Shown piece after piece: positions 1 to 11,887 of a stretch of DNA of 64,000 nt. Positions within the stretch are counted from its first letter, which is position 1, and each line of letters opens with the position of its first letter. This stretch comes from Bifidobacterium actinocoloniiforme DSM 22766 (lineage in GTDB: Bacteria > Actinomycetota > Actinomycetes > Actinomycetales > Bifidobacteriaceae): positions 310,001-374,000 of the forward strand of contig NZ_CP011786.1 in NCBI RefSeq assembly GCF_001263395.1, read 5' to 3'. Position numbers and translations under genes: made by a program. The notes beneath the pieces were generated by a model. That model was not told the DNA's origin, did no database searches, and saw only the letters and a list, made by a program, of their open reading frames with translations.

Positions 1-980
1 ATCTCCTCCAATTCGTCGGTGGGCATGTTCAGGGCGTGCAAGGCCTGGGCGGCGGTCTTCCCTTGGTTGAGCAGGTCGGCCAATGCGCTTGCCGCGCGGA
101 TCCAGGGCGAGCTGCCGAAGCCGCCCTGGTTTTTGCGGCTCAGGTGGTAGGGCTCCAGGAGGGCCTGCACGTGCTCACAGCCTGGAGCGTGCCGGTGGGG
201 TGCCCGAACGTGCCGCTCCGGCATGGGCGTGGGCTTGTCGTCCACGGCGCTCGGATGGCGGGACTGCTCCTGGGCGACCCACAGCCGGTAGCGCTTGTGC
301 CAGTCCTTGAGCCGTCCGCCCTTCGCCTCGGCCCACAGACGGAAGTCCCTGGCGGTACGATCCGCATCCACACCACACTGTCGAGCAAACAGGCGGTCGG
401 CTGAATCCGGAGACCAGTCAGCAGGGAATGGCACGCGCTTGGATTTAGGTTTCGATTTCGCCGGTGCTGCCCCCTTGGGGGCTACAGGGGTGTTTAATAA
501 TGGTTCTTCTAATGGGTTGGGTGAAGGCTGGTTCACCCCGTGGCGACGTGATTCTTCACCCCGTGGAATTTGACGGGATGAACCAGCCTTCACCCCGTCG
601 GTTTCACGGGCTGCACGCTCGTTCACCCCGTCCTGGCCGAGCTCCTCATCGATGGCCCGCTCACGCTCCACGCTCATGCCGGACTCGCCCGCCGGCGTCA
701 TGCATAGATCCCACACCGTGGTGCGCCGGTCCGCGCGGATATGCGACAGAATGCGCTGGTCCCCGGCGCGGATGACCCCAGCCTCCTTCAACCGGGACAG
801 ATGCTGGCGCACGCACCTGGGCGAGACGCGCGCGATCCTGCTTACCGTCTCCACACTGGGATAAGCGCCAGAACCGTCGGGCCGGGCGAAATCGGCCAGG
901 ATCACCAAGATCAGCCTGCCTGTGCTGTCCGCACCCACTGGAGCGTCACGCAACGCCCAACTCATGGCCTGCACACTCAT
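1..980 (-). CDS. Phage-type replication initiator with N-terminal winged helix (3' end off window)
   Basis: An open frame runs from ATG at 980 to the left window edge without a stop. The start has a strong Shine-Dalgarno (AAGGAG, about 7 nt upstream). Residues 1-95 read as a helix-turn-helix/winged-helix replication domain (SVETVSRIARVSPRCVRQHL), of the kind found in phage O-like and DnaD-like initiators. A hydrophilic linker at about residues 110-165 is encoded by the iteron region, and a second conserved-looking domain follows (DWSPDSADRLFARQCGV, DWHKRYRLWV). The gene is last in the leftward operon after ssb. Its likely job is origin recognition for the element. Family assignment rests on domain style and context, not on a search. 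Confidence 0.8.
   Translation of the reverse strand, partial: MSVQAMSWALRDAPVGADSTGRLILVILADFARPDGSGAYPSVETVSRIARVSPRCVRQHLSRLKEAGVIRAGDQRILSHIRADRRTTVWDLCMTPAGESGMSVERERAIDEELGQDGVNERAARETDGVKAGSSRQIPRGEESRRHGVNQPSPNPLEEPLLNTPVAPKGAAPAKSKPKSKRVPFPADWSPDSADRLFARQCGVDADRTARDFRLWAEAKGGRLKDWHKRYRLWVAQEQSRHPSAVDDKPTPMPERHVRAPHRHAPGCEHVQALLEPYHLSRKNQGGFGSSPWIRAASALADLLNQGKTAAQALHALNMPTDELEE
491..631. other. Putative replication origin: iterons plus AT-rich segment inside the initiator gene
   Basis: Four direct copies of TTCACCCCGT lie at 532-541, 555-564, 589-598 and 622-631. A 17-bp perfect inverted repeat (GGGTGAAGGCTGGTTCA at 519-535, its complement at 579-595) overlaps the iterons. An AT-rich stretch (491-516) flanks them on one side. 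This layout, inside the linker-coding part of the initiator gene, resembles the lambda O/ori arrangement. Function is inferred. Confidence 0.65.
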
Positions 981-1023
981 GACCACTCCTTTCCAAGCCC
1001 GCGAGCGCGGGTGGTTGTATCTC

Positions 1024-1104
1024 TTATTGGCCGTGTCTGTTGCTGATCCAGCTGATGGCCGCGGCCGCGATAATCAGCAGGATGGTCGCTATCGTCTGTC
1101 TCAT
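1024..1104 (-). CDS. Small single-span membrane protein, 26 aa
   Basis: The frame encodes MRQTIATILLIIAAAAISW and a short polar tail. Almost the whole chain is one hydrophobic helix. Its ATG overlaps the stop of the preceding gene (ATGA, 1101-1104), which favours translational coupling inside the leftward operon. No family is recognisable; phage genomes often carry such tiny membrane proteins (lysis, superinfection or unknown roles). It lies between the 73-aa gene and the replication initiator. Confidence 0.5.
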   Translation of the reverse strand: MRQTIATILLIIAAAAISWISNRHGQ

Positions 1105-1322
1105 GTCTGCGGCGTGTATGGGTTCGGCGGCAGGATGGATCGTTGGCCGGCCTGGCGGCCTTCCTCCCATGCCTGCTCTCGGACCTGCCGTAGCCAGGTG
1201 TCGAAGGCGTGCCAGGCGCTCATGCTGCGTGGGGCGTCGAACTGGTCATGGACAGCCGTGCGTATCGCATGACGGGTTAGTGGCCTGGCGAGCGCGTCAG
1301 AACTCGGGCTGGTCATCGTCAC
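1101..1322 (-). CDS. Hypothetical protein, 73 aa
   Basis: A charged soluble protein (MTMTSPSSDALARPL...) begins at GTG 1322, 8 nt after an AGGAG motif, inside the 3' end of ssb (26-nt overlap). An ATG two codons later is an alternative start but lies further from the Shine-Dalgarno. The middle part (AWHAFDTWLRQVREQAWEEGRQAG) is predicted helical with many Trp, Arg and Glu residues. Its position between ssb and the initiator suggests a replication-module accessory role, but I do not recognise the family. Confidence 0.55.
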   Translation of the reverse strand: MTMTSPSSDALARPLTRHAIRTAVHDQFDAPRSMSAWHAFDTWLRQVREQAWEEGRQAGQRSILPPNPYTPQT

Positions 1323-1737
1323 CCCCGAACTCCTGGCCAGGCTGGGCGGTATGGCCTTGGAAGCCGGACGCGCCCTGAGTACGGGTGACCTGGGCCGTGG
1401 CCCGGACCAGGCTGGGTCCTATATCGTCCACGGTCAGCTCGGTCACCGTGCGGGTGGAGCCGTCCTTGGCCTGGTAGTCGCGTTGGGAGAGCCTGCCGAC
1501 CGCGAGCGCGGCGGAGCCTTTACGCAGGCTCTGTGAGATGTGCTCGGCCAGGTCGCCCCAGGCGGTGCAGCGTTGGAAGAGCGTTGGCCCGTCCTCCCAC
1601 TCTTTGGATTGCCGGTTGAAGGTCCTGGGCGTGGAGGCGATCGTGAAGTTCGCCACCCGCTTGCCTGACCCTGTGCTTCGCAGTTCCGGGTCGGCGGTCA
1701 GGTTGCCTCGTATCGTCAGTGTCGTCTCGTTACTCAT
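1297..1737 (-). CDS. ssb: Single-stranded DNA-binding protein
   Basis: The 146-aa protein has an N-terminal OB fold (residues 1-110) with the typical SSB pattern: LTIRGNLTADPELR, VANFTIAST, WEDGPTLFQRCTAWGDLAEH, GRLSQRDYQAKDG. It ends in an acidic tail with terminal DDDQPEF, matching the DDDxPF-like tip that recruits replication and repair partners. It binds ssDNA at the element's replication fork and is probably a phage copy distinct from the host gene. Its start overlaps the stop region of the 46-aa gene upstream, and its end overlaps the next gene. Identification is firm. Confidence 0.95.
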   Translation of the reverse strand: MSNETTLTIRGNLTADPELRSTGSGKRVANFTIASTPRTFNRQSKEWEDGPTLFQRCTAWGDLAEHISQSLRKGSAALAVGRLSQRDYQAKDGSTRTVTELTVDDIGPSLVRATAQVTRTQGASGFQGHTAQPGQEFGGDDDQPEF

Positions 1738-1870
1738 TTCCTGGGTCCTCCTCGTGGTCTTGCCGTATCAGGTCCAGTCGCCGCCACATCTCCGGGTCGC
1801 TGTGGTATAAGGCGCGACGGAATGAGGGGTAGCGGCAGAAATAGATGTACAGACGGTCAAATTTGCTCAC
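1730..1870 (-). CDS. Small hypothetical protein, 46 aa
   Basis: GTG at 1870 is preceded by GAAGGAG with good spacing, and the frame runs to TAA at 1730-1732, overlapping the first codons of ssb. The product (VSKFDRLYIYFCRYPSFRRALYHSD...) is short, basic and aromatic in its first half and acidic at the end. It also overlaps the end of the DivIVA-like gene. The chain of overlaps supports it as a real coupled gene. Function unknown. Confidence 0.5.
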   Translation of the reverse strand: MSKFDRLYIYFCRYPSFRRALYHSDPEMWRRLDLIRQDHEEDPGNE

Positions 1871-2144
1871 GCCAGCTCCTTCGCAGCGCCGTGGACAAGC
1901 CTGTGCCTCCTCGGGACCGGCGGCGGGCGCGAGCCACGTAAGCGGCCTTGGCCCTCGCCTCGCGAGCCATGCACCTTGACTCGACGGCTATGCGGGCTGA
2001 GCGTTCGTTCACCCATTCCCGACCAATAGCGGTGATGGTCTCCGCCACCTCATCAAGGAAAGCGTCGACCTGATCCATGTCGTACCCCTCGCATAGGCGA
2101 TGGGTGGTGAACTCCTTGTCATGCACGTCCTTCGGCGTCAACAT
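1857..2144 (-). CDS. Short DivIVA-domain protein
   Basis: Starting from ATG 2144 (preceded by GAAGGAGG), the 95-aa product opens with MLTPKDVHDKEFTTHRL then GYDMDQVDAFLDEV, a close match to the N-terminal membrane-binding and crossover segment of DivIVA/Wag31 (consensus LTPxDVxxxxF...GYDxxxVDxFLDxV). The rest is a short helical, arginine-rich stretch instead of the long coiled coil of host DivIVA. Host DivIVA organises polar growth in actinobacteria. A truncated phage copy could localise a product to poles or interfere with host growth; that role is inference. It lies in the leftward early operon upstream of ssb. Confidence 0.75.
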   Translation of the reverse strand: MLTPKDVHDKEFTTHRLCEGYDMDQVDAFLDEVAETITAIGREWVNERSARIAVESRCMAREARAKAAYVARARRRSRGGTGLSTALRRSWREQI

Positions 2145-2313
2145 CACGCGCCTCCTTCGCCTCATCCAGGCCTACGGCGGTAAGCCGATACCTGGAACAC
2201 CGTCCACCGGCCTCGCTGCGACCTTCCTGGTCCGCCGCTTCCGCACTTGTCACCGGATCACCGGATTGGGGGAGCGCCATCACGTCATCGATCGTCAACG
2301 GTTCCACGCGCAT
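2119..2313 (-). CDS. Hypothetical protein, 64 aa
   Basis: ATG 2313 follows GGGAGG at good distance. An ATG three codons upstream (2322) is possible but less well placed. The product starts MRVEPLTIDDVMALPQSGD and continues polar. The GEAGGRCSRYRLTAVGLDEA-like segment resembles the tail of small winged-helix proteins, but no family can be named. It overlaps the DivIVA-like gene by 26 nt and the membrane protein gene upstream by 19 nt, as expected for a compact phage operon. Confidence 0.45.
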   Translation of the reverse strand: MRVEPLTIDDVMALPQSGDPVTSAEAADQEGRSEAGGRCSRYRLTAVGLDEAKEARDVDAEGRA

Positions 2314-2489
2314 GCTTCCCACCTCCCCAAGCCGTACCTAGCGGCCACCAGGCCGAACGCGGCCGCGGCCAGATGCGTCAGCGACAGCACGCCCCGGCAA
2401 GCGGCCGCAACAACCCAGGCCGAACCCCAGACGGACATGACCACGCCGACCGCACCCAGCAGCAGGCACACCACGCCACGAACGTTCAT
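2295..2489 (-). CDS. Small two-span membrane protein, 64 aa
   Basis: The sequence has two hydrophobic spans (VVCLLLGAVGVVMSVWGSAW and LSLTHLAAAAFGLVAARYGL) separated by a short Cys/Arg loop, so it is probably a helical hairpin in the membrane. ATG 2489 overlaps the TGA of the upstream DNA-binding gene (ATGA) and has a GGGGGG-type ribosome site. Family and function are unknown. Confidence 0.5.
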   Translation of the reverse strand: MNVRGVVCLLLGAVGVVMSVWGSAWVVAAACRGVLSLTHLAAAAFGLVAARYGLGRWEACAWNR

Positions 2490-2830
2490 CGTTGACCCCC
2501 CTTCGGCACGTCACCCATGTACTGGCGGATCGACTGCACGCTCACCAGCTTCGTGCGTTTGCCGCGCTCCTTACGGGCCCGCAGCCGACCGGCCTTGATC
2601 AGGTCCCTGGTGAAACCGTCATCCTGCATCCCCAGCATCCTGGTGGCCGTCCTGACCGGCACCGCGATCTGGTAGGTGTCCTTGGACAGCTCGACCGCCA
2701 CCTCGCGGAAAGCGGCCACCAGGTCGGCCAGACCTATCTGCACCACCACGGTGTCGCCGTTCCCCGGCAAGACGTTATCGCTTGTCTCACTGCGCTCTGT
2801 TGCTTGCGTTGGTATACTGTGATCAGACAT
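2486..2830 (-). CDS. Putative excisionase-like or MerR-like DNA-binding protein
   Basis: Taking ATG 2830, the 114-aa protein has a polar N-terminus (residues 1-30), a helical middle (IGLADLVAAFREVAVELSKD), and a C-terminal segment (ATRMLGMQDDGFTRDLIKAGRLRARKERGKRTKLVSVQSIRQYM) that reads like a helix-turn-helix of the excisionase/MerR type ending in a beta wing. An upstream in-frame ATG at 2872 lies in a hairpin, so I prefer 2830, which has GGAG 9 nt upstream. It is the first gene of the replication operon and may regulate it. The assignment is by eye. Confidence 0.55.
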   Translation of the reverse strand: MSDHSIPTQATERSETSDNVLPGNGDTVVVQIGLADLVAAFREVAVELSKDTYQIAVPVRTATRMLGMQDDGFTRDLIKAGRLRARKERGKRTKLVSVQSIRQYMGDVPKGGQR

Positions 2831-2857
2831 GTAGGTGCTCCAACCTTTCTTGTCTAC

Positions 2858-2890
2858 AAGCCGCTGCTTCACCAGCGGCTTCTTCCTTTT
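2858..2890 (+). terminator. Hairpin with T-rich tail
   Basis: AAGCCGCTG at 2858-2866 pairs with CAGCGGCTT at 2873-2881 across a 6-nt loop, followed on the + strand by tcttcctttt. It could stop rightward transcription. Read leftward it would sit in the leader of the 2830 gene as an attenuator-like stem. Confidence 0.5.
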
Positions 2891-3001
2891 CTGAGTGATG
2901 CCGGGGCGGGGGATAGGGAAGCCCGCCGCCCCGGCCGGTCCCCTAAGATGGATTGCAAAGCCGCATGTAGGGTGCGGCTCCCACCGAAGGGGAAGAACTA
3001 T

Positions 3002-3556
3002 ATGGGGACCTTTGCGAATTGGCTGCTGGACAACTGGGCAGTGATTTGCGGGTGGCTGCTAACAATTGCGCTTACCGTGGCGGGATGGGCCATAACGGCC
3101 GCCAGGACACGGCGACAGAACGAGCGCGAGGCCGCCGCGTCCCGGGAACGGCTGGATGCGTCAAACGCTCGAATCAAGGTTCTGGAAGGGCAACTCGAGG
3201 CGCAGCAACAATCCGCGCTGGCTCTTAGCGAGCAAGTGGACCAGCTCAAAGAAGCGAATCGGCTTTTCGAAGCGGCCAACCCGGCGGATGCCGACCCCTG
3301 GAGTTCCGCGGTCAACGTTCGCGGAATGCAGTACCGTGTCACCAACGAGGGGGCGAGGGATGTAGTGGTCGATACGGTTGGGCCAGACGATGACCGACTC
3401 CCATTCAGGTGCGAGCGCGATGTGCCTTTTGAGTGCGGCGCTGGCGATGGATTCGACTGCTTCGTCCCCGGCACGAACTCAGGGACGGCATCCATTACAA
3501 TCGGCTGGCATTTCGTCGGAAGCGCGGACATAAGGGCCACCCGCCGTCCAGTGTGA
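3002..3556 (+). CDS. Membrane-anchored coiled-coil protein, 184 aa
   Basis: ATG 3002 has GGGGAAG upstream. A longer in-frame reading to the left runs through antisense sequence and is not credible. The protein has one N-terminal membrane span (residues about 8-32, NWAVICGWLLTIALTVAGW), a charged coiled coil (about 35-85) and a C-terminal domain with a beta-rich look (YRVTNEGARDVVVDTVG, ITIGWHFVG). The N-terminus is homologous to the 56-aa product at 4375-4545 (shared GW..T......GW.I...R.RRQ). It points right, against the surrounding leftward genes. Function unknown; the C-terminal domain may be cytoplasmic or external depending on topology. Confidence 0.7.
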   Translation: MGTFANWLLDNWAVICGWLLTIALTVAGWAITAARTRRQNEREAAASRERLDASNARIKVLEGQLEAQQQSALALSEQVDQLKEANRLFEAANPADADPWSSAVNVRGMQYRVTNEGARDVVVDTVGPDDDRLPFRCERDVPFECGAGDGFDCFVPGTNSGTASITIGWHFVGSADIRATRRPV

Positions 3557-3569
3557 AACGTGGAGGTAT

Positions 3570-3779
3570 TCATAGCAGGCCTCCCATGAAACGCCGAGCA
3601 TCGTCCGCGCCGACGAATCTGAATTTCTCGTACTTGATCAGGCATTTGTCGCCCCCGCAGAACTCAATGGTTATGGGGTCGTCAGTCAATCCGGAAGTCG
3701 ACGAGACCGGCGTCTCATGTAATAGGTCGGTGATTTCTGCGGCGTTTTCCTTGTCGGGGATTACCTTCACGTAAGTCAT
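3570..3779 (-). CDS. Hypothetical protein, 69 aa
   Basis: MTYVKVIPDKENAAEITDLL followed by an acidic and beta-like stretch (DDPITIEFCGGDKCLIKYEKFRFVGADDARRFM). The start is preceded by one copy of the repeated ribosome-site leader (CGCTCGCAGGAGAGGAGGAGC) and overlaps the stop of the reading frame upstream (ATGA). The two cysteines (CGGDKC) could bind metal, but the pattern is too short to call. Small phage protein of unknown function. Confidence 0.6.
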   Translation of the reverse strand: MTYVKVIPDKENAAEITDLLHETPVSSTSGLTDDPITIEFCGGDKCLIKYEKFRFVGADDARRFMGGLL

Positions 3780-4270
3780 CGCTCCTCCTCTCCTGCGAGC
3801 GGCAATGCTGCCCTCAGATGTCTAAATGAGACAATGAAGGCACCTACGCAAAGAAGGGAGGTGAAGGTATGCAGCGAGATCCCATTGATTCGGCGAAGGA
3901 TGCCAGGGAAGCAGCGCAGGCGGGGAACACTCAGCTGGCGTTGGCTGCTCTGGCCGATGCCGTGCAGGGCATAGCCGAGTACCAGCGGTACATACGCAGT
4001 GATCAGATGAAGATCAAGAAGGCGCTGAACATTCCCTGATTCATGTTTCCTGTCGTCCGTCGCAGCGAGCTTCATCTCCCGGTGGACGACGTTCTGCACA
4101 GCGCCCAGCAGGCCGGGATTGCGCCTCTCGAACTCCTCTGCCGACATGGGGGCATCCCCAGCTCGGCTGTTTCCCGGCTCATCCCATATGGAATCCCGTA
4201 TACCTTCGAACGGAACGGATGATGTTCCTGTGAACGGACCTGCCGTCGCACCCACATGATTCTGCGTCAT
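3776..4270 (-). CDS. Hypothetical protein; only the N-terminal half looks like coding sequence
   Basis: The start at 4270 has a copy of the repeated leader. Residues 1-75 (VPFEGIRDSIWDEPG, DAPMSAEEFERRNPGLLGAVQNVVHREMK) look like a normal small protein. The second half runs opposite to the well-supported + gene at 3869-4039 and has an irregular, Leu/Arg/Cys-rich composition. The frame may therefore be a shorter gene extended by a lost stop, or an overlap of two real genes. It ends in the next repeated leader, translated as LAGEEER. Confidence 0.45.
   Translation of the reverse strand: MTQNHVGATAGPFTGTSSVPFEGIRDSIWDEPGNSRAGDAPMSAEEFERRNPGLLGAVQNVVHREMKLAATDDRKHESGNVQRLLDLHLITAYVPLVLGYALHGIGQSSQRQLSVPRLRCFPGILRRINGISLHTFTSLLCVGAFIVSFRHLRAALPLAGEEER
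3869..4039 (+). CDS. Small helical protein, 56 aa
   Basis: ATG 3869 follows a very strong ribosome site (GGGAGGTGAAGG). The product (MQRDPIDSAKDAREAAQAGN, LALAALADAVQGIAEYQRYI, then a basic tail) is a coherent amphipathic helical protein. It lies on the opposite strand inside the 3' half of the frame 3776-4270, and this one has the better Shine-Dalgarno and composition. Function unknown. Confidence 0.55.
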   Translation: MQRDPIDSAKDAREAAQAGNTQLALAALADAVQGIAEYQRYIRSDQMKIKKALNIP

Positions 4271-4292
4271 TTCTCCTCCTCTCCTGCGAGCG
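4271..4292 (-). promoter_or_regulatory. Repeated ribosome-binding leader (one of three copies)
   Basis: A 21-22-nt unit, read leftward CGCTCGCAGGAGAGGAGGAGA, sits directly before the start codons at 4270, 3779 (copy at 3781-3801, one change) and 4672 (copy at 4673-4694, two changes). Each unit carries two stacked purine-rich Shine-Dalgarno motifs. Conservation beyond the ribosome site suggests the leaders were duplicated together with gene cassettes, or share a regulator. Confidence 0.7.
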
Positions 4293-4374
4293 CACAGGAA
4301 TTGGCTTTATTTGTGTGGTGGTCGGCGTTGTATAGGATCGTTTGTGGTTGGATCGAGGGTGAGGGTTTTGCTTT

Positions 4375-4545
4375 ATGGGTGTGGTATGGGATTGGGTTGT
4401 CGGTAACGCGGTCACTGTCGGCGGCTGGGTTGTGACCCTGACGGTGGCGATTATCGGTTGGGTGATTAGTGGTGTGCGCATTCGCCGACAGGATGATGCG
4501 AGCATAAAAGCCAAGCAGGGTGAGCTCGATGTCACCGTGAAGTAA
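4375..4545 (+). CDS. Short membrane protein, truncated relative of the 3002 gene
   Basis: ATG 4375 opens a 56-aa protein: MGVVWDWVVGNAVTVGGWVV, then a membrane span and VRIRRQDD with a short polar tail ending at TAA 4543-4545. It aligns without gaps to the first 45 residues of the 3002-3556 product (N, GW, T, GW, R, RRQ conserved), but the coiled coil and C-terminal domain are absent. It lies in the gap between leftward genes, overlapping one by 14 nt. It could be a decayed copy or a functional short paralogue. Confidence 0.6.
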   Translation: MGVVWDWVVGNAVTVGGWVVTLTVAIIGWVISGVRIRRQDDASIKAKQGELDVTVK

Positions 4546-4672
4546 GCGCTTGGACATGGTTCATCTCCTTCCATTTGACGATTCCCTCGTAAGCGGAGAA
4601 AAGCGCGATGCTGATTCCCGCTAATCCAATCGACAAGCAAGACGTGATTACCAAAGCTCTCGGTAGCTTCAT
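4532..4672 (-). CDS. Small membrane protein, 46 aa
   Basis: ATG 4672 lies directly behind the third copy of the repeated leader. An upstream in-frame ATG (4723) would translate the leader itself and is rejected. The product begins MKLPRALVITSCLSIGLAGI and has one strongly hydrophobic span (about residues 5-28), followed by a charged tail (YEGIVKWKEMNHVQALTSR). It could be a signal-anchored peptide. It is the second gene after the divergent promoter, downstream of the Cro-like regulator. Confidence 0.6.
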   Translation of the reverse strand: MKLPRALVITSCLSIGLAGISIALFSAYEGIVKWKEMNHVQALTSR

Positions 4673-4938
4673 TTCTCCTCTTCTCCCGCGAGCGCCGAGG
4701 ATTGAGAGGAGTGCTCGTCGCAATAGCTAAGTGCCGCGCTTGGTTCGACTCCGACTTCCCTGGACAGCTGTATGAATTTACTGAGCATCATGTCGCCAGC
4801 TTCAAATCGGGCATTTAGGGTGGGTCTGGATATATGAAGTGCCGAAGCTAGTTCAGTTTTGGGCTGCTCGTTCATCAGGGCCTTTTTCCGCAAACCGTCA
4901 ATGGCTTGGGCAGCCAGTTTGTAAGAGCTTTCTTTCAT
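4669..4938 (-). CDS. Cro-like helix-turn-helix regulator
   Basis: The 89-aa protein has a single HTH (residues about 28-60: TELASALHISRPTLNARFEAGDMMLSKFIQLSREVG). It is transcribed leftward and divergently from the putative repressor at 5028, from a strong promoter (TTGACA at 4974-4969, 17-bp spacer, TACAGT at 4951-4946) that places the transcription start almost on the ATG. One operator box overlaps its own first codons. By analogy with temperate phages it would be the Cro-type regulator at the head of the early operon. Its C-terminal residues overlap the third leader repeat. Confidence 0.7.
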   Translation of the reverse strand: MKESSYKLAAQAIDGLRKKALMNEQPKTELASALHISRPTLNARFEAGDMMLSKFIQLSREVGVEPSAALSYCDEHSSQSSALAGEEEK

Positions 4939-5017
4939 GTCTGTAACTGTAAGAGCTTTCTATCATTATGTCAAACCTGCATGCTGGTTTGTTAAAAAGC
5001 TTTTACGTGCGTAATCT
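4921..5017. promoter_or_regulatory. Divergent lysogeny-type switch: three operator boxes and two promoters
   Basis: GTAAGAGCTTTCT occurs at 4921-4933 and 4949-4961, and the related inverted box AAAAAGCTTTTAC at 4994-5006; all share a central AAAGCTTT/GAGCTTTC core. Box 2 overlaps the spacer and -10 of the leftward promoter; box 3 fills the spacer of the rightward promoter (TTGTTA 4989-4994, 17-bp spacer, TAATCT 5012-5017). Box 1 is inside the first codons of the leftward gene. The geometry matches a repressor/Cro control region. Confidence 0.75.
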
Positions 5018-5027
5018 GTTGGATATG

Positions 5028-5405
5028 GCAAAGTATGCGAGTGTGTGGACGACTACAGATGTCGGAGTGATGAATCTTATCTCGAAGAAGAGGGATGAGT
5101 CTCCATTCCAGATATCGGATAGAGCGCTTGCTCGTGCCATAGATGTGAGTGCCCCAAGGATTGGCGATCTTTTTGGCCACCGACACGGATCGCCGTCGTT
5201 GCGCGAGTTCATAGCCTTGTGCCAAGTTTTTAATCTCAGCCCCGCGAGCACCCTGGAAAAGGCGATGCGGCTGAGTGAACGTGCGGATGAACTTGAAGAA
5301 CGAAAAGCCAGGCTGGATCGAGTGGCAGCGCACCCTGAGGATTACGATATTGCCGCGAACTACGATCCGAACAAGGAGCTGGAAAGGGAGACCCCACGAG
5401 ATTGA
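5028..5405 (+). CDS. Putative prophage repressor (HTH)
   Basis: From ATG 5028 the product is 125 aa with an HTH around residues 30-75 (SDRALARAIDVSAPRIGDLFGHRHGSPSLREFIALCQVFN) and a charged helical C-terminus. The rightward promoter predicts a transcript starting about 5 nt before this ATG, so the message would be nearly leaderless. ATG 5070 and ATG 4968 are alternatives. It sits immediately upstream of an ImmA-type protease gene, the arrangement seen for ImmR/ImmA repressor-antirepressor pairs in integrative elements. Role as master repressor is inferred from position and operators. Confidence 0.7.
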   Translation, partial: AKYASVWTTTDVGVMNLISKKRDESPFQISDRALARAIDVSAPRIGDLFGHRHGSPSLREFIALCQVFNLSPASTLEKAMRLSERADELEERKARLDRVAAHPEDYDIAANYDPNKELERETPRD

Positions 5406-5426
5406 GCAAGATTGTAGGGGAGGGAA

Positions 5427-5825
5427 ATGATGCGGCCAAGCTATGACGACCTGCTGCTCGAAGCGATGACGCTGGGGGCGACGGTGGAGGAGCGCACTTT
5501 GCAACATGGCCTGTGCGGCTTCTACTGGGACCGCGAGCGCACCATAGTCATAGATGACGGCATGGCGGACTGGCAGAAACGCTGCGTCCTGTGCCATGAG
5601 CTCTCTCACGCCCGGTACCACGACGCCGGCTGTGGCACGAACTGCAGCAAAGCCGAGCGACGTGCACGCAAGGAGACGGCCCTGCGCCTGATAAGCCCAT
5701 TGGAATATGCAAGCGCCGAAGCTGCATATGACGGCGACGCTTTCCTGATAGCATCGGACTTGGGCGTAACCGTCCAGGTCCTTAATGATTACAGGATGTG
5801 GCTCGACAACAACGTCAGGGCCTGA
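5427..5825 (+). CDS. ImmA/IrrE-family metallopeptidase
   Basis: The 132-aa protein carries the zinc-binding HExxH motif in CHELSHARYHDAGC (residues about 56-69), preceded by GFYWDRERTIVIDDGMADWQKRCVL and followed by ERRARKETALRLI, the standard layout of ImmA/IrrE-like domains (DUF955). Such proteins cleave a partner XRE repressor to induce excision. The gene follows the HTH gene by 21 nt, so the 5028 product is the likely substrate. The C-terminal 45 residues are duplicated as a decayed copy at about 6,490-6,617. Confident by motif and context. Confidence 0.85.
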   Translation: MMRPSYDDLLLEAMTLGATVEERTLQHGLCGFYWDRERTIVIDDGMADWQKRCVLCHELSHARYHDAGCGTNCSKAERRARKETALRLISPLEYASAEAAYDGDAFLIASDLGVTVQVLNDYRMWLDNNVRA

Positions 5826-5841
5826 CAGAAGGGAAGAACGA

Positions 5842-6465
5842 ATGACGGCTGGAATACGTGCCCGCGGCATTGTGGCTGTGGTTGGAGCGTTGACGATGAT
5901 TTTGGGCCTATCTGGCTGCGGTGCTCAGAAGACGGTGCCGGACGTGACGGGGAAGAATTTCACCGAGGCCACCTCCGCCCTCGCTAAGGAAGGGTTCGCC
6001 TACGAAGCTCAGGATGGAAGCGGGCAGCCCGCGGTTGATGGAACCGTCACCGAACAGGATCCCAAGGGCGGCACGAAGACTGACGCCACGAAAGTAAAAC
6101 TCACGGTGAGGAGTTCCGCTGACGCGGCGCAGGAGCGGGCCGCGCAGAAGCGGAAAGAGAAGGCTGAGAAAAAGGCGCAGCAGCAAAACTCGCCAGCACC
6201 TGCCGAGAAGTCCACTTCTGGCGGGCTCACCCAGACATATGCGCAGTCAGCCTGCGATCAACGCGGCCAACAGGAATTCCCCTACGGATACAAACCTCAC
6301 TACATGACCGCTGGCGCGGAACCGATGTGGTCGCCCGATAGCGTCATGCTCCAGTACAAAGCGACCGTTAAGAACGGGTACAACGCCAAGCGGGATGTGA
6401 CAGTAACTTGTAACGTACGCGGTTCCAATGATCACCCGGAAGTATTCGGTTGGTTGGCTCAGTAG
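5842..6465 (+). CDS. Lipoprotein with a PASTA domain
   Basis: The 207-aa product has a signal peptide ending in a lipobox (MILGLSGC, Cys at about residue 27), then a PASTA domain (VPDVTGKNFTEATSALAKEG to KVKLTV, residues 31-95), a Lys/Ala/Gln-rich linker and a C-terminal domain (QEFPYGYKPHYM, VMLQYKATVKNGYNAKRDVTVTCNV). PASTA domains bind cell-wall muropeptides. The start at 5842 is 16 nt after the ImmA stop with a GGGAAG site. On a prophage it may be a lysogeny-expressed surface protein, possibly for superinfection exclusion or host-wall interaction; that is inference. Confidence 0.75.
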   Translation: MTAGIRARGIVAVVGALTMILGLSGCGAQKTVPDVTGKNFTEATSALAKEGFAYEAQDGSGQPAVDGTVTEQDPKGGTKTDATKVKLTVRSSADAAQERAAQKRKEKAEKKAQQQNSPAPAEKSTSGGLTQTYAQSACDQRGQQEFPYGYKPHYMTAGAEPMWSPDSVMLQYKATVKNGYNAKRDVTVTCNVRGSNDHPEVFGWLAQ

Positions 6466-6481
6466 AGGATTTACTCTCAGT

Positions 6482-6617
6482 CGTGGCTCCCGTGGAGTGC
6501 GCGAGCGTGGAGCTTGCCTATGAGGGCGATGCGTTCCTCATGGCTTCGGACCTTGGCGTAACCGTCTAGGTCCTGAGTGATTGCAAGATGTGGCTCGACA
6601 ACAACGTCAGGGCCTGA
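6482..6617 (+). pseudogene. Decayed 3' fragment of an ImmA-type protease gene
   Basis: The stretch translates as VECASVELAYEGDAFLMASD then LGVTV-stop-VLSDCKMWLDNNVRA, matching the last about 45 residues of the 5427 gene product (…EGDAFLIASDLGVTVQVLNDYRMWLDNNVRA), with an in-frame TAG in place of the Gln codon. The last 30 nt are identical. It follows the lipoprotein gene just as the intact copy precedes it, so the lipoprotein gene is flanked by direct repeats. Confidence 0.85.
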
Positions 6618-6642
6618 TTGCAGGAGGCGAAGAACGTGAGTG

Positions 6643-8040
6643 CTATTCGGTTTTGCTGCTGTATGGTGTCAGATCGATGGGGTCGTGTGGCCGAGGCATC
6701 TCTAGTCTGAGTTCCAGCGTATCGTTCTTTTTCCGGATGTGTGCGAGGGCTACGGATTGCCCGTTTGGTATCTGCAGGTAGTGGCGTGCCATTTGATAGG
6801 CGGTGATGTATCCGATTTCCTCGCCGTCGAGGCTGACGTAGATGGTGGGGTATCCTTTGTATTTTCCTTTGGGGATGTAGCCTTTGCGAACGGTGAGCCA
6901 TATCCATGCGCCGTCACCGTATTTGCTGAGCAGGGGCATATGGTCTTTTTCGCCGCAGACGCTGATGCTGCCGGCTGCTTCGAGTTCCTGGCCGGAGGGT
7001 TTGATATTTCTGGGTGTGGTGTTTTCGCTGGCAAGATAGCTGGCTCGCAGGAATGATGTAGTTTTTTCGCGGCTACGCCGTCTGGCCCGATCGTTTTGTT
7101 CCTTCATGATGGGGCGTGGACTGGAAGCGCTTTCCATTAGAGTGTAGCAGTGGAAGGTCTGCTTGGCGTCTGCGAGCGCTCGATGCTCTTCCTCTTCGTG
7201 GATGCCCAGCAGATCGAGGAGTGTTTCAAGGGTGAGGTTGGCTGCGTTCGGGAACACATGCTTGCCGATGGTCATGGTGTCCACTATCCGAGGAGCTTCC
7301 AGTGGTTTGATTCCGAGTGATTCGGCGGTGGAGTTGATCAGGTTGATGTCGAAGCTGATGTTGTGCCCCATGATTGGTAGATGGCGTATCGCATCGAGTA
7401 GTGGGGGAAGCACCTGGGAGGCCACTGGGGCTTGCGCAAGCATCTCGTTGGTTATTCCGGTGAGGCTGACGATGGCAGCACTCACCATGGTTTGTGGGCG
7501 TATCAGTTGGGAATAGGTTGCTGTCACCTTACCGTTTTGGACCAACATGACTCCGATGTCGATGATTTCCTTTCCCTTGTGCAAGCCGGTGGTCTCCGTG
7601 TCGATGACCGCGTAGTCGGCGTTCTTGGCCGCATGCGAAAACCCTGTGGCTGGATAAACGAGGTTGGGGGAGAAGGTGGGTTCCTTGTGCGCAAGGGTGG
7701 GGGTTGCCGGTTGAGATGGCTCTGGATGCGCTGGTGGGTGTGGGGGGATTCCCTGTTGTTGCTGATTCGGCTCTTGCCTGCTTGACGCGATCCGGCTAGG
7801 AGTCTGCCCTTGTGCTTTACCCGCCTGGGTATGCTTTCCGCGGCTCCTGCGCTTTCGGCTGCGTCGAAAACGGAGGAGAAGATACATTAGCAGAATCAGG
7901 ATAGCCGCGATAATCAGCGAGAGGATGCTGCCAGACAGATTCTCCGGGTGTTGCGAAAGCCGCGAAATCCCCCAGATGCCCACATAGCCGAACAGTGCGA
8001 CCCCGAGCCCCAGTATGATCAACAGCAGCGTGATGAACAT
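6643..8040 (-). CDS. Membrane-anchored DEDDh 3'-5' exonuclease
   Basis: From ATG 8040 (AAGGAG 6 nt upstream; GTG 8046 possible) the protein is 465 aa. Two membrane spans occupy residues 1-58, then an Arg-rich and Pro/Gln-rich linker to about 125. A DnaQ/PolC-epsilon-type exonuclease domain follows: Exo I YAVIDTETTG, Exo II MGHNISFDINLI, Exo III EHRALADAKQT, with all DEDDh residues visible. A C-terminal domain (about 350-450) contains GAWIWLTVRKGYIPKGKYKG and LDGEEIGYITAYQMA, which I cannot assign. Anchoring such a nuclease in the membrane is unusual for a replication proofreader and would suit attack on incoming DNA. Function inferred. Confidence 0.8.
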   Translation of the reverse strand: MFITLLLIILGLGVALFGYVGIWGISRLSQHPENLSGSILSLIIAAILILLMYLLLRFRRSRKRRSRGKHTQAGKAQGQTPSRIASSRQEPNQQQQGIPPHPPAHPEPSQPATPTLAHKEPTFSPNLVYPATGFSHAAKNADYAVIDTETTGLHKGKEIIDIGVMLVQNGKVTATYSQLIRPQTMVSAAIVSLTGITNEMLAQAPVASQVLPPLLDAIRHLPIMGHNISFDINLINSTAESLGIKPLEAPRIVDTMTIGKHVFPNAANLTLETLLDLLGIHEEEEHRALADAKQTFHCYTLMESASSPRPIMKEQNDRARRRSREKTTSFLRASYLASENTTPRNIKPSGQELEAAGSISVCGEKDHMPLLSKYGDGAWIWLTVRKGYIPKGKYKGYPTIYVSLDGEEIGYITAYQMARHYLQIPNGQSVALAHIRKKNDTLELRLEMPRPHDPIDLTPYSSKTE

Positions 8041-8166
8041 CCTCACTCCTTCGTCGCTCCATGAGCCACTTCACTATGGTTCGTCCCTAAAAGAGATATT
8101 ATCGGAAGCTGCTCTTATACCTGAGTGTCGGATAAGACATGGTGGGTATGCGACGTCGCATAAAGT

Positions 8167-8196
8167 CCCCCGTCCGCATTGCGACGCGGACGGGGG
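8167..8196. terminator. Strong GC hairpin
   Basis: CCCCCGTCCGC (8167-8177) and GCGGACGGGGG (8186-8196) form a perfect 11-bp stem with an 8-nt loop. It lies in the 258-nt gene-free gap between the four-TM gene and the exonuclease gene, so it probably ends the leftward transcript of the two-gene operon. No T-run follows. Confidence 0.55.
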
Positions 8197-8298
8197 AAGG
8201 GTCTGTTTGAACTATTCTGGTCCGGCGGCCTGGGGCGAAAGATGATCGCGATGCGCGGCTTCATGAAGGCCGGGGTGCAGTAAATTGCGACAAAGACG

Positions 8299-8823
8299 TT
8301 ATTTGCTCTGCCCGTATTTTTTGATGGATTCCAGCGCGTCCGCTTGGGTGAATTTAGCCCGTTCCTGTTCGGCGGACCGGGAGTCCATCAGTAGTGTGAA
8401 CCTTACCCAGAAGATGCAGCGTGCGGTTTCGGAAAGAATCAGGGCAACGGAAGCCACCGCCAGAGCCTGACCGAGCGGCTTGTCGACAAGGATCGAGAGA
8501 AGCGGAAGCAGGGCTGCCAGCAATGAGAAGACAATCATCCCAAGCCAATTGTGGGAGAAGTTCTCCCTATAGTTCTTACGCGCAACCTTCATGAGCTCGC
8601 TGTCGGATCCGTACGCGAGCATTATTGTGAATGTAATGGAGGACATGAGGATGCCGGCTAAAGCCGATATGCCTGCGTAGAAAGCCGTCAGATCCTTTTT
8701 TGCTGGAGGGAAAAGGAAGTACACGAGCGTAAATGATGCAAGCATGGGTATGGTATCAAGTGCCGGCGTGCGTTGAACCCACGCTTTCACCTTGAACCAT
8801 GGGCCTCGTGCCATTCTGGTCAT
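8299..8823 (-). CDS. Four-span membrane protein of a two-gene cargo operon
   Basis: The 174-aa protein has four hydrophobic segments (about residues 25-40, 46-70, 92-115 and 120-145) after a basic N-terminus, and a charged cytoplasmic tail (DSRSAEQERAKFTQADALESIKKYG). It starts 8 nt after the stop of the 8832 gene, so the two are co-transcribed. No family is recognised. A small multi-span membrane protein paired with a soluble partner at a prophage end is the layout of several anti-phage modules, where the membrane protein is the effector. That role is a hypothesis. Confidence 0.7.
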   Translation of the reverse strand: MTRMARGPWFKVKAWVQRTPALDTIPMLASFTLVYFLFPPAKKDLTAFYAGISALAGILMSSITFTIMLAYGSDSELMKVARKNYRENFSHNWLGMIVFSLLAALLPLLSILVDKPLGQALAVASVALILSETARCIFWVRFTLLMDSRSAEQERAKFTQADALESIKKYGQSK

Positions 8824-8831
8824 TCTACGCT

Positions 8832-9764
8832 TTACCTTTCTATCAACTTGTATACCTCATCCTCATTCTTGGAGCAGACATCCACGAGGGTATCGACAAG
8901 CTGGGAAAACTGTCGTGGCTCGTCACATTCTGGTATATCGGCCTTCATGATCAACGGGTGGCGGAGGAGGTTGTAATCGATTGCGACCTCATCGATTGTC
9001 GTGCCTTTCACGAAAAGCGTCTGGCGCTGTTCTGAAACAACCGGAGCGATTTCGGTTACAACTTCCTTGAGCTTTCGTCTGGCATCTTTACTTGAAGTAG
9101 GTGGTATTTTAATCGTTACATCAATGCTGACGTCGGTTTGAAGATCATTCGCTAAAGGTTGCGTCATGCTCAGCAATTGGCCGCCGTTACGCTCCAAGTT
9201 GAATAGATTTCGTTGCGTAACAAACTTGGCATGGACCTGGTGCACGCCTCCCATTTTCTCCTTGAATTCACGTAAGCCGTCGGCTGTGTAGACAGGCACG
9301 ACTCTCCACTCGAAGTTCTCCCCATTTTGGTTCAATGTCGCGTTCAGGAACTCCTCGACTAGCTTTTCTTTGGGTCTGCCAGCGCCAGTAATGTACCCGA
9401 TTGCATCGTGTTTAGGGTAGAATACTATGGCTGACATCTGAGCGAGATCTGTCTTTCCTGCCTGTATGTCATCGTCTGCTAAGTCAAGCATCTGATCGTT
9501 TTGATTGTCTATTTTTTGCACGAACTGAGTGCTGAGTCTCTCTCCTATGGTGAGAATCGGGTATTTCTTGCCTTCGAGAGCCAACATTAAGATTCGTTTC
9601 GAGGCGAACCAGTGTTTTTCTCCTGGTAATTCCTGATAGGCGGACAACAACTCGTGCCAATCGAGTGCTGGGACGCTGGGGATGCCATTGGTGATTATGT
9701 TTCCGAATCGTCTTTGGAGTTGGAAGAAATAGACTTTGCGCTCTATCGGATTCTTCTTCGCCAT
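8832..9764 (-). CDS. Soluble protein of unknown function, first gene of cargo operon
   Basis: The preferred start is ATG 9764 (GAAGGGA upstream), giving 310 aa; an in-frame ATG at 9827 is poorly placed. The N-terminus (MAKKNPIERKVYFFQLQRRF) and the layout (an N-terminal region to about 100, a middle alpha/beta region with AIVFYPKHDAIGYITG, and a beta/helix C-terminus with SIDVTIKIPP) recall small phage or defence proteins whose N-terminus reads FYxLQ, but I cannot name a domain. No nuclease or NTPase motif is visible. Its base composition is less GC-rich than the neighbouring chromosome, consistent with recent acquisition. Confidence 0.7.
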   Translation of the reverse strand: MAKKNPIERKVYFFQLQRRFGNIITNGIPSVPALDWHELLSAYQELPGEKHWFASKRILMLALEGKKYPILTIGERLSTQFVQKIDNQNDQMLDLADDDIQAGKTDLAQMSAIVFYPKHDAIGYITGAGRPKEKLVEEFLNATLNQNGENFEWRVVPVYTADGLREFKEKMGGVHQVHAKFVTQRNLFNLERNGGQLLSMTQPLANDLQTDVSIDVTIKIPPTSSKDARRKLKEVVTEIAPVVSEQRQTLFVKGTTIDEVAIDYNLLRHPLIMKADIPECDEPRQFSQLVDTLVDVCSKNEDEVYKLIER

Positions 9765-9828
9765 GCCCAGTCCCTTCTCGTAACGGTCAAGAACTATTCT
9801 GACACGGCAGGAAGCGGAAGACGGCACC

Positions 9829-9850
9829 TAATTGGACATCTAATTGGACA
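9829..9850. repeat. Two tandem TAATTGGACA boxes next to the attachment site
   Basis: TAATTGGACA occurs at 9829-9838 and 9841-9850, a 12-bp period, 56 nt from the ssrA-like tail. Short tandem boxes at this distance from an attachment core are typical of integrase arm-type or excisionase sites. The function is inferred. Confidence 0.5.
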
Positions 9851-9905
9851 AGAAATCTGCTGTACTCTGGAAGGTCCTCTAACCATTGATTTTTGAAGGA
9901 TATAA

Positions 9906-9928
9906 TTCAATTCCCCGCAGCTCCACCA
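9906..9928 (+). other. ssrA: Displaced 3' end of ssrA (tmRNA): putative right attachment site
   Basis: The sequence TTCAATT followed by CCCCGCAGCTCCACCA matches the T-loop and acceptor end of bacterial tmRNA (the E. coli gene ends ...CAACTCCCGCCAGCTCCACCA). The 5' complement needed for the T stem is missing (the flank reads GGATATAA), so this is only a tail. It is followed at once by a strong terminator. The simplest reading is the tail displaced when an element integrated at ssrA, with the restored gene left of the window. A tRNA gene tail is less likely. Confidence 0.7.
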
Positions 9929-9934
9929 ATATCG

Positions 9935-9965
9935 AAGCGCCATCCCGTGAGGGGTGGCGCTTTTT
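9935..9965 (+). terminator. Rho-independent terminator (native ssrA terminator)
   Basis: AAGCGCCA (9935-9942) pairs with TGGCGCTT (9955-9962), with the stem extended by CCC/GGG around a gtga loop, followed by TTTTT. It lies 6 nt after the CCA of the ssrA-like tail, as expected for the original tmRNA terminator. Confidence 0.85.
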
Positions 9966-10123
9966 CGTTGTTGGGAGGGGTTGGGGCTGGGGTGGTGGGG
10001 TTGGCCTTGCATGGCTTCATTTCGGGGGCCTCAAGCCCAGGCGTAAGTGGTAAATGTCTCATAGTGTAGACTATGCAAAGGCGGGGGAATCGCATTAGAG
10101 GGGATAAAAAAGGGGAACGAACC

Positions 10124-11164
10124 ATGGATGCAACAACAGCCGAAACGATGCCCGAGGCTAGCCGCAAGCACCGCAGGCTTTGGATCATCATCGCGGCCGT
10201 CGCTGTCGTGGCGCTCATCATCGCGGGCGCATTCGCCTACCGGCACGTGACCCACTCACGCGCCCTGGCCGACTGCGAGAACGCCCGCAGCCAATACCAG
10301 GCCGCTGTCAAGCGACTGGACAAGACGAGGTCCGCGGCCAGCCAGCAGGTCAAAGCCACCCCGGCCGGGGACGTGTCCGACGCCAAGATCATCCAAGCCG
10401 TCACCAACGCCACAGGGGACGAAGCCGGCAAGGGCAAGGCCAAGCCGGCCAAGGACAGCAAACCGGCCATCCCCTCCTGCCCCGCCGACGCCAACGCCGG
10501 AACCCTGAACGGCAACGCGGCAACCACCCGCCAGGCCACCGGCAAGGCGGGCAAGGACGACAAGGCCATCGCCACCGCTGCGGCGGCCATGAACGCTGAT
10601 GTGAGGAAGACCGTCAAGGCCCATTTGGACAAAGCCATCGGCGACGGCGACCAGCTCCTGGGCTCCACCGACGGGCAAGTCGCCGACAACGCCACCAGGG
10701 ACGCATTGAAGACCGCCCTGAACCAAGCCAAGGCCGTGCAAGCCAACGCCAAAGCCAGCGTGGACGACCAACGCAAGGCCATCCAAGCCATCAATGACCA
10801 AACCAAAGCCGTCAACGACTCCAAAACAGCCAAAGACCAAGCCGACCAAGCAACAGCCGACGCGGCGAACGCCGCGCAAGCGCAATCCGCGCCATCACCC
10901 GGACAGGGCTACTCCGGCGGCGGCTACACCGGACCGCAACACTGGAATGGCGGCGGCGCATACCGACCCAGCAACGGCGGCGGGTACCGGCCCAGCGGCG
11001 GCAGTTCACGCCCCAACCGGGCGCCAGCACCGGCAGCACCGGCGCCAGCTCCGGTGACACCACCGGCATCAGGTGGCGGCGACAGTTTCTGGAATGATCT
11101 TAACAATGGAGCCACCGGCCCTGCAATTGATAGCAATGGTAACTGCTTCGCTCGTTGCTTCTGA
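10124..11164 (+). CDS. Membrane-anchored extracellular coiled-coil protein
   Basis: ATG 10124 (GGGGAACG upstream) opens a 346-aa protein. A single span (about residues 19-40, LWIIIAAVAVVALIIAGAFA) follows a short basic N-terminus. Residues 45-260 are Ala/Lys/Asp-rich helical sequence with FIVAR-like spacing, then a Gly/Tyr/Pro-rich low-complexity region (GGGYRPSGGSSRPNRAPAPA) and a small C-terminal end (NNGATGPAIDSNGNCFARCF) with a Cys pair. It resembles the extracellular part of the zinc-ribbon protein at 15103-17211 (shared SHSRxxALA... start of the helical region). It is probably surface-exposed and wall-spanning. Molecular function unknown. A second copy survives only as a 3' fragment at 11890-12075. 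Confidence 0.7.
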   Translation: MDATTAETMPEASRKHRRLWIIIAAVAVVALIIAGAFAYRHVTHSRALADCENARSQYQAAVKRLDKTRSAASQQVKATPAGDVSDAKIIQAVTNATGDEAGKGKAKPAKDSKPAIPSCPADANAGTLNGNAATTRQATGKAGKDDKAIATAAAAMNADVRKTVKAHLDKAIGDGDQLLGSTDGQVADNATRDALKTALNQAKAVQANAKASVDDQRKAIQAINDQTKAVNDSKTAKDQADQATADAANAAQAQSAPSPGQGYSGGGYTGPQHWNGGGAYRPSNGGGYRPSGGSSRPNRAPAPAAPAPAPVTPPASGGGDSFWNDLNNGATGPAIDSNGNCFARCF

Positions 11165-11203
11165 TTGATTCATATCGTTCACACGGACGGCCAATAATCA
11201 CAA

Positions 11204-11237
11204 TCGCCCGCTGGAATCATGTGATTCCAGCGGGCGA
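11204..11237. terminator. Perfect 16-bp inverted repeat
   Basis: TCGCCCGCTGGAATCA at 11204-11219 and its exact complement at 11222-11237 form a long hairpin 40 nt after the stop of the coiled-coil gene. No T-run follows. Between here and 11457 I see only a 17-codon frame at 11280 with GGAGG before it; no gene is supported. Confidence 0.65.
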
Positions 11238-11456
11238 CCGCGTGACTGATAGTCGAGTCCGCATGAACGGAGGACCACCATGAATGGATCACCAATGTCT
11301 GGACAACTGGTTGGATGTCGGTGCGGTGACTAACGAAGCGACCGTTACCGTGGACTCGTGGACCTTTAGCGTATTATTACGGGGCTTGGTTGTCAACAAC
11401 AGCAGGTCGTCTCGTAATCGGACTTCGCCGCTTATAACGGTGTGTATATGAAACAA

Positions 11457-11495
11457 CCTCTGTTACGGGCTGAGGTAGAAAGCCCGCAACAGAGG
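11457..11495. terminator. Hairpin ending the leftward frame at 11558
   Basis: CCTCTGTT...GGGCT and AGCCC...AACAGAGG form an approximately 15-bp stem with one mismatch and an 8-nt loop. It is downstream of the minus-strand frame 11558-11887 and could end its transcript. Confidence 0.45.
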
Positions 11496-11557
11496 TCGTC
11501 GTTGTGTGTTGTGATTGAGTCGAAAGATTCAACGTCATCAGTACAGCATCATGAAGT

Positions 11558-11887
11558 TCACTCGTCAATGCCGGTGAGTTTAGAGGCCATGGCTTCGGCG
11601 ACGATCGCCAGTTGGCCTTGGGATGCGGAGAGCCACTCCTTATGGGACTTTTGTTCGGCCCGGGCCATTTTCAGCGCGTCCTTGGCATCGTCGATGGCCT
11701 GGCCGGCGGCATGCTTGAGCGCTTCCTTGCGTTGGGCTTTGAGGTCCTTGAGGGCCTCCTTGGAGCGTGTTTGTTCGAGCTCGATCCGCTCGTCGAGGGC
11801 GCGCACGGCGTCGGTGGCGGTCACGTCGTCCACGGTCTCCTTGCGCTCCTTGACGTGCTCCTTGGACGAGTCGATGGCGTCCCGCAA
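11558..11887 (-). pseudogene. 5'-truncated coiled-coil protein gene
   Basis: The frame encodes about 109 aa of highly charged helix (DAIDSSKEHVKERKETVDDV... ELEQTRSKEALKDLKAQRKE...), clearly protein-like. Its only nearby start is a TTG at 11887 with no ribosome site, and its 5' side abuts the fragment 11890-12075, which belongs to another gene in the opposite direction. I read this as a remnant cut off at a recombination junction near 11,888. A very short functional protein cannot be excluded. Confidence 0.5.

Follow-up and report, generated by a model that had tools for sequence, protein, structure and literature searches.

A probable prophage replication origin within the gene of its own initiator, and covariation between the initiator and its iterons

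Near the left end of the window, by which we mean the whole 64,000-nt stretch of Bifidobacterium actinocoloniiforme DSM 22766 DNA that was analysed, a 10-mer recurs inside a gene for a replication initiator. Origins inside rep genes are known from the Gram-positive phages Tuc2009 and SPP1. The question raised by this locus is whether the repeats are the origin at which the initiator acts, or whether they have another role or none. We find it highly probable that they belong to the replication origin of a prophage, and that this origin lies within the gene for its initiator. The gene, the parts of its product that are referred to below, and the gene for the phage single-strand binding protein (SSB) upstream of it are located as follows.

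1-986, minus strand: ORF of the replication initiator gene, 330 aa; its final 7 nt lie to the left of the window, with the stop at G000:C1:309994
705-980, minus strand: N-terminal winged helix-turn-helix, residues 1-92 from MSVQ (AlphaFold2 pLDDT 94-98 for residues 1-90)
804-806, minus strand: Gln codon for residue 59, which lies in the recognition helix (modelled at 54-66) and was singled out by covariation
246-443, minus strand: DnaT-like C-terminal domain, about residues 180-245, assigned by structure match
1297-1737, minus strand: phage SSB (Pfam SSB E 4.1e-26, phrog_44 E 5.7e-42)

The neighbourhood of the locus is a prophage. An IMG/VR contig with the locus spans about positions 1-11887 of the window and 25.8 kb leftward. 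Downstream of the initiator is an exonuclease gene, and further ORFs appear, by the look of them, to encode a methyltransferase, a terminase and a portal protein. Several other genes in the neighbourhood were noted in passing. A small phage gene beside the SSB (1857-2165) has a DivIVA-type N-terminus (PF05103, E 3.1e-9). At 6643-8046 a DNA polymerase exonuclease-subunit domain (phrog_192, E 9.6e-41) is fused to an N-terminal membrane-like stretch, and a second, smaller phrog_192 protein comes after the initiator (L011:9392-9997). Positions 4968-5825 encode an HTH protein and then an ImmA/IrrE-type metallopeptidase (PF06114, phrog_87), a pair that is likely to be the prophage repressor and anti-repressor. 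On the minus strand, three neighbouring ORFs end in the junction CGCTCGC(A/G)GGAGA(A/G)GAGGAG...ATG, at which in each case the following ORF begins (3770-3795, 4262-4287 and 4665-4690); this repeated junction is a ribosome-binding site and at the same time encodes ALAGEEE. The initiator of Bifidobacterium phage Bbif-1 is directly preceded by a gene with a ParB domain (L050:1610-3007).

The initiator ORF is intact. Its product matches the family profile phrog_1032, 'replication initiation protein', over residues 3-244 (E 2.9e-33), and it also matches phrog_391, 'replication initiation O-like' (E 1e-10), and Pfam HTH_36 (E 1.7e-6). Searching the PDB by sequence with the initiator returned general HTH proteins only. 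The structure matches of the N-terminal domain are winged helices, with VIA-align Z reaching 8.7. The AlphaFold model gives a pLDDT below 50 to most of residues 116-165, in the linker that spans the iterons, and is confident for the C-terminal domain at 185-241. The C-terminal model, which was built from two sequences, matches the ssDNA-binding domain of DnaT (6aeq/4ou6) with a modest VIA-align Z of 5.6/5.5, the next row being at 3.1. DnaT was listed by this second aligner only, as Foldseek gave no match below E 5 for the C-terminal model. The DnaT profile PF17948 has no match in the window initiator and weak matches at the same place in homologues, the best of which (18.7 bits) is under the curated cut-off of 25. 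The modelled C-terminus would resemble the ssDNA-binding domain of the primosomal protein DnaT weakly, and it differs from DnaT in its setting, since DnaT is a separate host protein without a winged helix.

An earlier note on this DNA had described four copies of a 10-mer, a 17-bp perfect inverted repeat and an adjacent AT-rich patch at 491-631, all in the linker-coding part of the initiator, and each of these was recovered. The elements are listed here from the start-codon side of the gene.

622-631, minus strand: iteron copy, ACGGGGTGAA on the coding strand (sequence scan)
606-615, plus strand: degenerate inverted half-site ACGGGCTGCA, 2 mismatches, pairs with 622-631 (scan)
589-598, minus strand: iteron copy, ACGGGGTGAA on the coding strand (sequence scan)
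573-582, plus strand: inverted half-site ACGGGATGAA, 1 mismatch, pairs with 589-598 (scan)
555-564, minus strand: iteron copy, ACGGGGTGAA on the coding strand, in a codon phase unlike that of the other three (scan)
532-541, minus strand: iteron copy, ACGGGGTGAA on the coding strand, closest to the AT-rich block (scan)
516-525, plus strand: degenerate inverted half-site, TTCACCCAAC on the coding strand, pairs with 532-541 (read from the sequence)
519-541, plus strand: inverted repeat, first arm, 23 nt, 17 bp of it perfect (repeat search)
573-595, minus strand: inverted repeat, second arm (repeat search)
482-521, no strand: proposed DNA unwinding element (lowest 40-mer stability, and AT peak in 73 initiators)

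A scan of the window finds TTCACCCCGT exactly four times, at 532-541, 555-564, 589-598 and 622-631. The whole 1.83-Mb genome holds n=8 copies, against n=9 for a reversed control motif, and four of the eight crowd into 100 bp at one place of the genome. The two 23-nt arms of the inverted repeat are 96% complementary (23 bp with one mismatch), and the first 17 bp, read from the arms, are perfect. The block at 482-521, which adjoins the array, is AT-rich, carries two AACC(C)ATTA repeats and is the least stable 40-mer of window positions 1-4000. Iterons, inverted repeat and AT-rich block all lie within the minus-strand initiator ORF, in its disordered linker part (ORF 1-986, PHROG 1032 match, low pLDDT at 116-165), and the iteron copies fall at codons 116-146. 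For the window linker alone, a generic count of short dyads does not reach significance (p=0.19). A degenerate inverted half-site stands opposite three of the four direct copies, and a closing half-site CACCCA/CACCCG like that at 516-525 terminates many homologue arrays. Degeneracy in three of four possible inverted partners might also be read as decay, the layout being that of an origin and the site a relic in a defective prophage. Yet the initiator ORF is intact and the iterons are exact, and we regard a relic as very improbable.

Two kinds of control bear on whether the repeats follow from the encoded protein. None of 4000 synonymous-codon shuffles of the gene had four copies of any 10-mer, and 78 had three; in an 8-mer test with 300 shuffles, two runs gave p 0.010 and 0.023. 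Since the repeats vanish when the codons are shuffled and the peptide is kept, they are not explained by the protein. The second control is codon phase. Two of the copy-to-copy spacings, 23 and 34 nt, are not divisible by three, so that 555-564 falls in another frame, in which it codes PRGEE, while the other copies code HGVN or DGVN.

The same features were followed through the initiator family. Of 189 host-family genomes, 77 carry it, as do phages of Bifidobacterium, Arthrobacter, Gordonia and Pseudomonas, and a Pseudomonas member also matches Vibrio and Acinetobacter phages. Of 438 viral relatives, 80 were sampled. A single-protein search of genome contigs gave no relative, and a 21-row alignment was too diverse for the viral scan. 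Significant 8-mer repeats (p<0.02, synonymous shuffling) occur in 43 of 61 non-redundant initiators, picked by protein only, vs 1 of 54 control ORFs taken from these loci. The linker protein, in turn, aligns poorly across homologues. The comparison that the earlier note had proposed, of iterons kept as DNA against a drifting linker protein, thus came out as it had expected.

About 30% of homologues have no significant exact repeats. The same shuffle test applied to lambda O gives p=0.21, though lambda O has known (imperfect) iterons; the test is therefore conservative, as it misses a known origin. A conserved initiator without repeats, which the earlier note had named as the case that would count against it, is found in part. 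L018 and L020-L024, a close group of about 38% identity, have no significant exact 8-mer repeats, but at the equivalent position L018 retains a single perfect 23-bp dyad, ACGGGTGCAGATCCTGCACCCGT. Other loci (L034, L036, L133, L134 and L276) have iterons without a GGGG core, of the types GTCACYRGTGAC, ACGACCGG, AGCGGCCA and GTAGCTCA, and the half-site variation is therefore wider than the GGGG set analysed here.

We also searched in the opposite direction, scanning viral contigs for three ACGGGGTG spaced 22-23 nt apart, with no protein criterion. At least 120 viral contigs matched. At 75 of 80 loci the array was inside a winged-helix initiator ORF of this family, on the same strand; many of the scanned contigs are closely related, so these are not 75 independent events. 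The 75 arrays lie 95-124 aa after the initiator start, and at the remaining 5 loci the array is at a cut contig end. Copies are distributed 143/79/70 over the codon phases. The use of all three phases means that it is the DNA that is conserved and not the peptide.

These results decide on one alternative, namely that a repetitive linker peptide gives rise to the repeats as a side effect. In the window, three of the four copies do share one frame and code GV(N/K), and protein-driven repeats are shown to exist by L043, which an earlier repeat pattern had picked up and where ten ACGGGGTGAA copies stand at 18-nt multiples (L043:4263-4774). That locus was rejected as an iteron array, since its 18-nt repeat keeps to a single frame and codes a hexapeptide, LGNGVK..., which makes it a protein-driven look-alike. 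Elsewhere in the family the repeats use all three codon phases at a 22-nt spacing, are found inverted as well, and disappear in shuffles that preserve the peptide. The phase and shuffle tests refute the peptide explanation for the family, and we give it practically no weight for the window. The suggestion that selection acts here on the DNA rather than on the protein is borne out by the same two tests.

The anatomy of the arrays is shared as well. In many members the iteron unit is a dyad, GGGGTGNN-N(5-8)-NNCACCC, the second arm of which comes 15-16 nt after the first and is often degenerate except in the last unit. Iterons are mostly spaced 22-23 nt apart, 22 nt being the commonest value in the repeat-scan loci. 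Directly after the last iteron unit follow AT-rich AACCRT repeats with a spacing of 11 bp (n=25) or 12 bp (n=12). Averaged over 73 initiators, the AT content goes from ~0.40 through the array to 0.54-0.60 at +20 to +50 nt past the last iteron, and the equivalent of this peak in the window is 482-521.

The recognition helix was also aligned with the bases that follow GGGG in the iterons. Residue 59 was first picked by eye, and a later scan of alignment columns ranked it top by eight orders of magnitude. The base concerned is the fourth after GGGG, which is C in TGAC and TGTC. Among non-redundant initiators, Arg at residue 59 goes with C in 16 cases and without C in 2 (the exceptions L014 and L285), and other residues go with C in 0 cases and without C in 31 (Fisher 4.6e-11; next best column 2e-3). 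In 11 of 11 independent pairs that differ at residue 59, taken from a tree built without that column, the base agrees. A second position, residue 55, shows a related pattern: the change from Arg to Ser goes with T at base 3 (2.4e-5). For the choice between A and C at base 3, several columns tie, probably through kinship, and this comparison was not used. The covariation had not been foreseen by the earlier note. Its simplest reading is that the initiator probably contacts the iterons in its own gene, although covariation at residue 59 does not by itself prove origin function.

Recognition without replication is what would be expected if the array were an autoregulatory operator, at which the winged-helix protein, bound inside its gene, would repress or adjust expression of its own operon while replication starts elsewhere. 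Winged-helix regulators bind dyads of this kind, the residue-base covariation speaks for recognition and not for replication, and autoregulation could coexist with origin function. However, at 350-450 nt into the gene the sites are remote from a promoter, and the array is followed by a conserved AT-rich block with 11-12-bp repeats. The family is moreover classed as replication initiation proteins, and one relative adjoins loader and helicase genes. We therefore consider an operator without origin function unlikely. Less likely still, in our judgement very much so, is a partition, packaging or recombination site that came to lie in the initiator gene by chance. Dyad arrays occur in such sites too, and Bbif-1 has its parB-like gene directly upstream of the initiator; against this, no such gene is constant beside the initiators examined, and it is the initiator's own winged helix that covaries with the array.

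An origin within the initiator gene thus remains the preferred reading, and the best-known system of this kind is that of lambda. In lambda and its lambdoid relatives (Stx phages P27 and 933W) the iterons are mid-gene and dyad-like, with an AT-rich block directly beside them (PMC5043065, PMC7466680). In lambda, O dimers occupy four dyads, and 40 bp of AT-rich DNA open (PMC5043065). Our sequence check places the start of the lambda iterons at codons 116-138 of O, in several codon phases, compared with codons 116-146 here. The two systems share the mid-gene position, the adjoining AT-rich block and, as read from the sequence, the dyad-like sites, but differ in the iteron sequence, in the AACCRT repeats of 11-12 bp within the AT-rich block here, and in the DnaT-like C-terminus, which is seen here in a prophage where no DnaC/IstB-type loader was found. 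Lambda O scored with the profile of the N-terminal domain gives -4.7 bits, so no sequence homology was detected by this comparison. A weaker structure match to the replication protein O of the Stx phage Min27 (E 4.7e-6) leaves open a remote kinship with the lambda O proteins. The best-supported reading is that the layout works like lambda O/ori, and we do not file the initiator as a lambda O homologue. The proposal of an iteron origin in the lambda O/ori style is supported as a layout, by arrays and AT-rich blocks throughout the family. The GC skew, suggested as a further check, has no clear sign change or inflection at the array (260-350 kb of the genome) and neither supports nor refutes it.

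Comparable systems are found in other phages. Gp56 of Pseudomonas phage MD8 is an O-like protein with repeats within its gene, reported with no iteron analysis (PMC8508860); MD8 differs in having a P-like partner. The PHROG 1032 initiators of Bbif-1, PMBT6, Andrew and CF183a, from phages of Bifidobacterium, Arthrobacter and Pseudomonas, share with the window initiator the winged helix and a linker in which the array is followed by the AT-rich block, but vary in iteron half-site and C-terminal domain. In the Pseudomonas relative CF183a, which has its own loader and DnaB, the initiator is followed by a DnaC/IstB-type ATPase (the loader) and then by DnaB.

What has been computed is that the array exists, that it is conserved as DNA, that it keeps a fixed position after the winged helix and adjoins an AT-rich block, and that residue 59 covaries with one iteron base. 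By analogy with lambda, we infer the following course of initiation. The initiator would bind the dyad-like GGGGTGAA iterons through its N-terminal winged helix, probably as dimers, and the spacing of about two helical turns would stack these dimers on one face of the DNA. Melting would then follow in the AT-rich block that adjoins the last iteron towards the 3′ end of the gene. The likeness of the C-terminal domain to DnaT suggests that this domain may hold the exposed single strand and assist in recruiting the helicase. The latter is likely to be the DnaB of the host, since a domain search of the prophage region found neither DnaB nor IstB/DnaC.

For the family as a whole, across Actinomycetota and Proteobacteria, we think it likely that the origin lies in the linker-coding DNA, that the fourth base is set by residue 59 (C with Arg, A with other residues) and the third is influenced by residue 55, and that protein and origin co-evolve within a single gene, the C-terminal domain being exchanged meanwhile. 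We found no report of iterons in the PHROG 1032 initiator family or of the residue-59 rule in the open-access literature, which omits most subscription journals, and the priority of the finding is uncertain.

Taken together, the analysis provides, from sequence alone, a probable origin for a large phage group, in which most initiators carry no annotation beyond HTH protein. As protein and binding site are in one gene, each sequence is a matched pair, and the iteron type can be predicted from the protein. The residue-59 rule is checkable by one substitution, Gln to Arg, with GGGGTGAA vs GGGGTGAC sites. The lambda arrangement, as a layout, is thus seen outside the lambdoid O family too.
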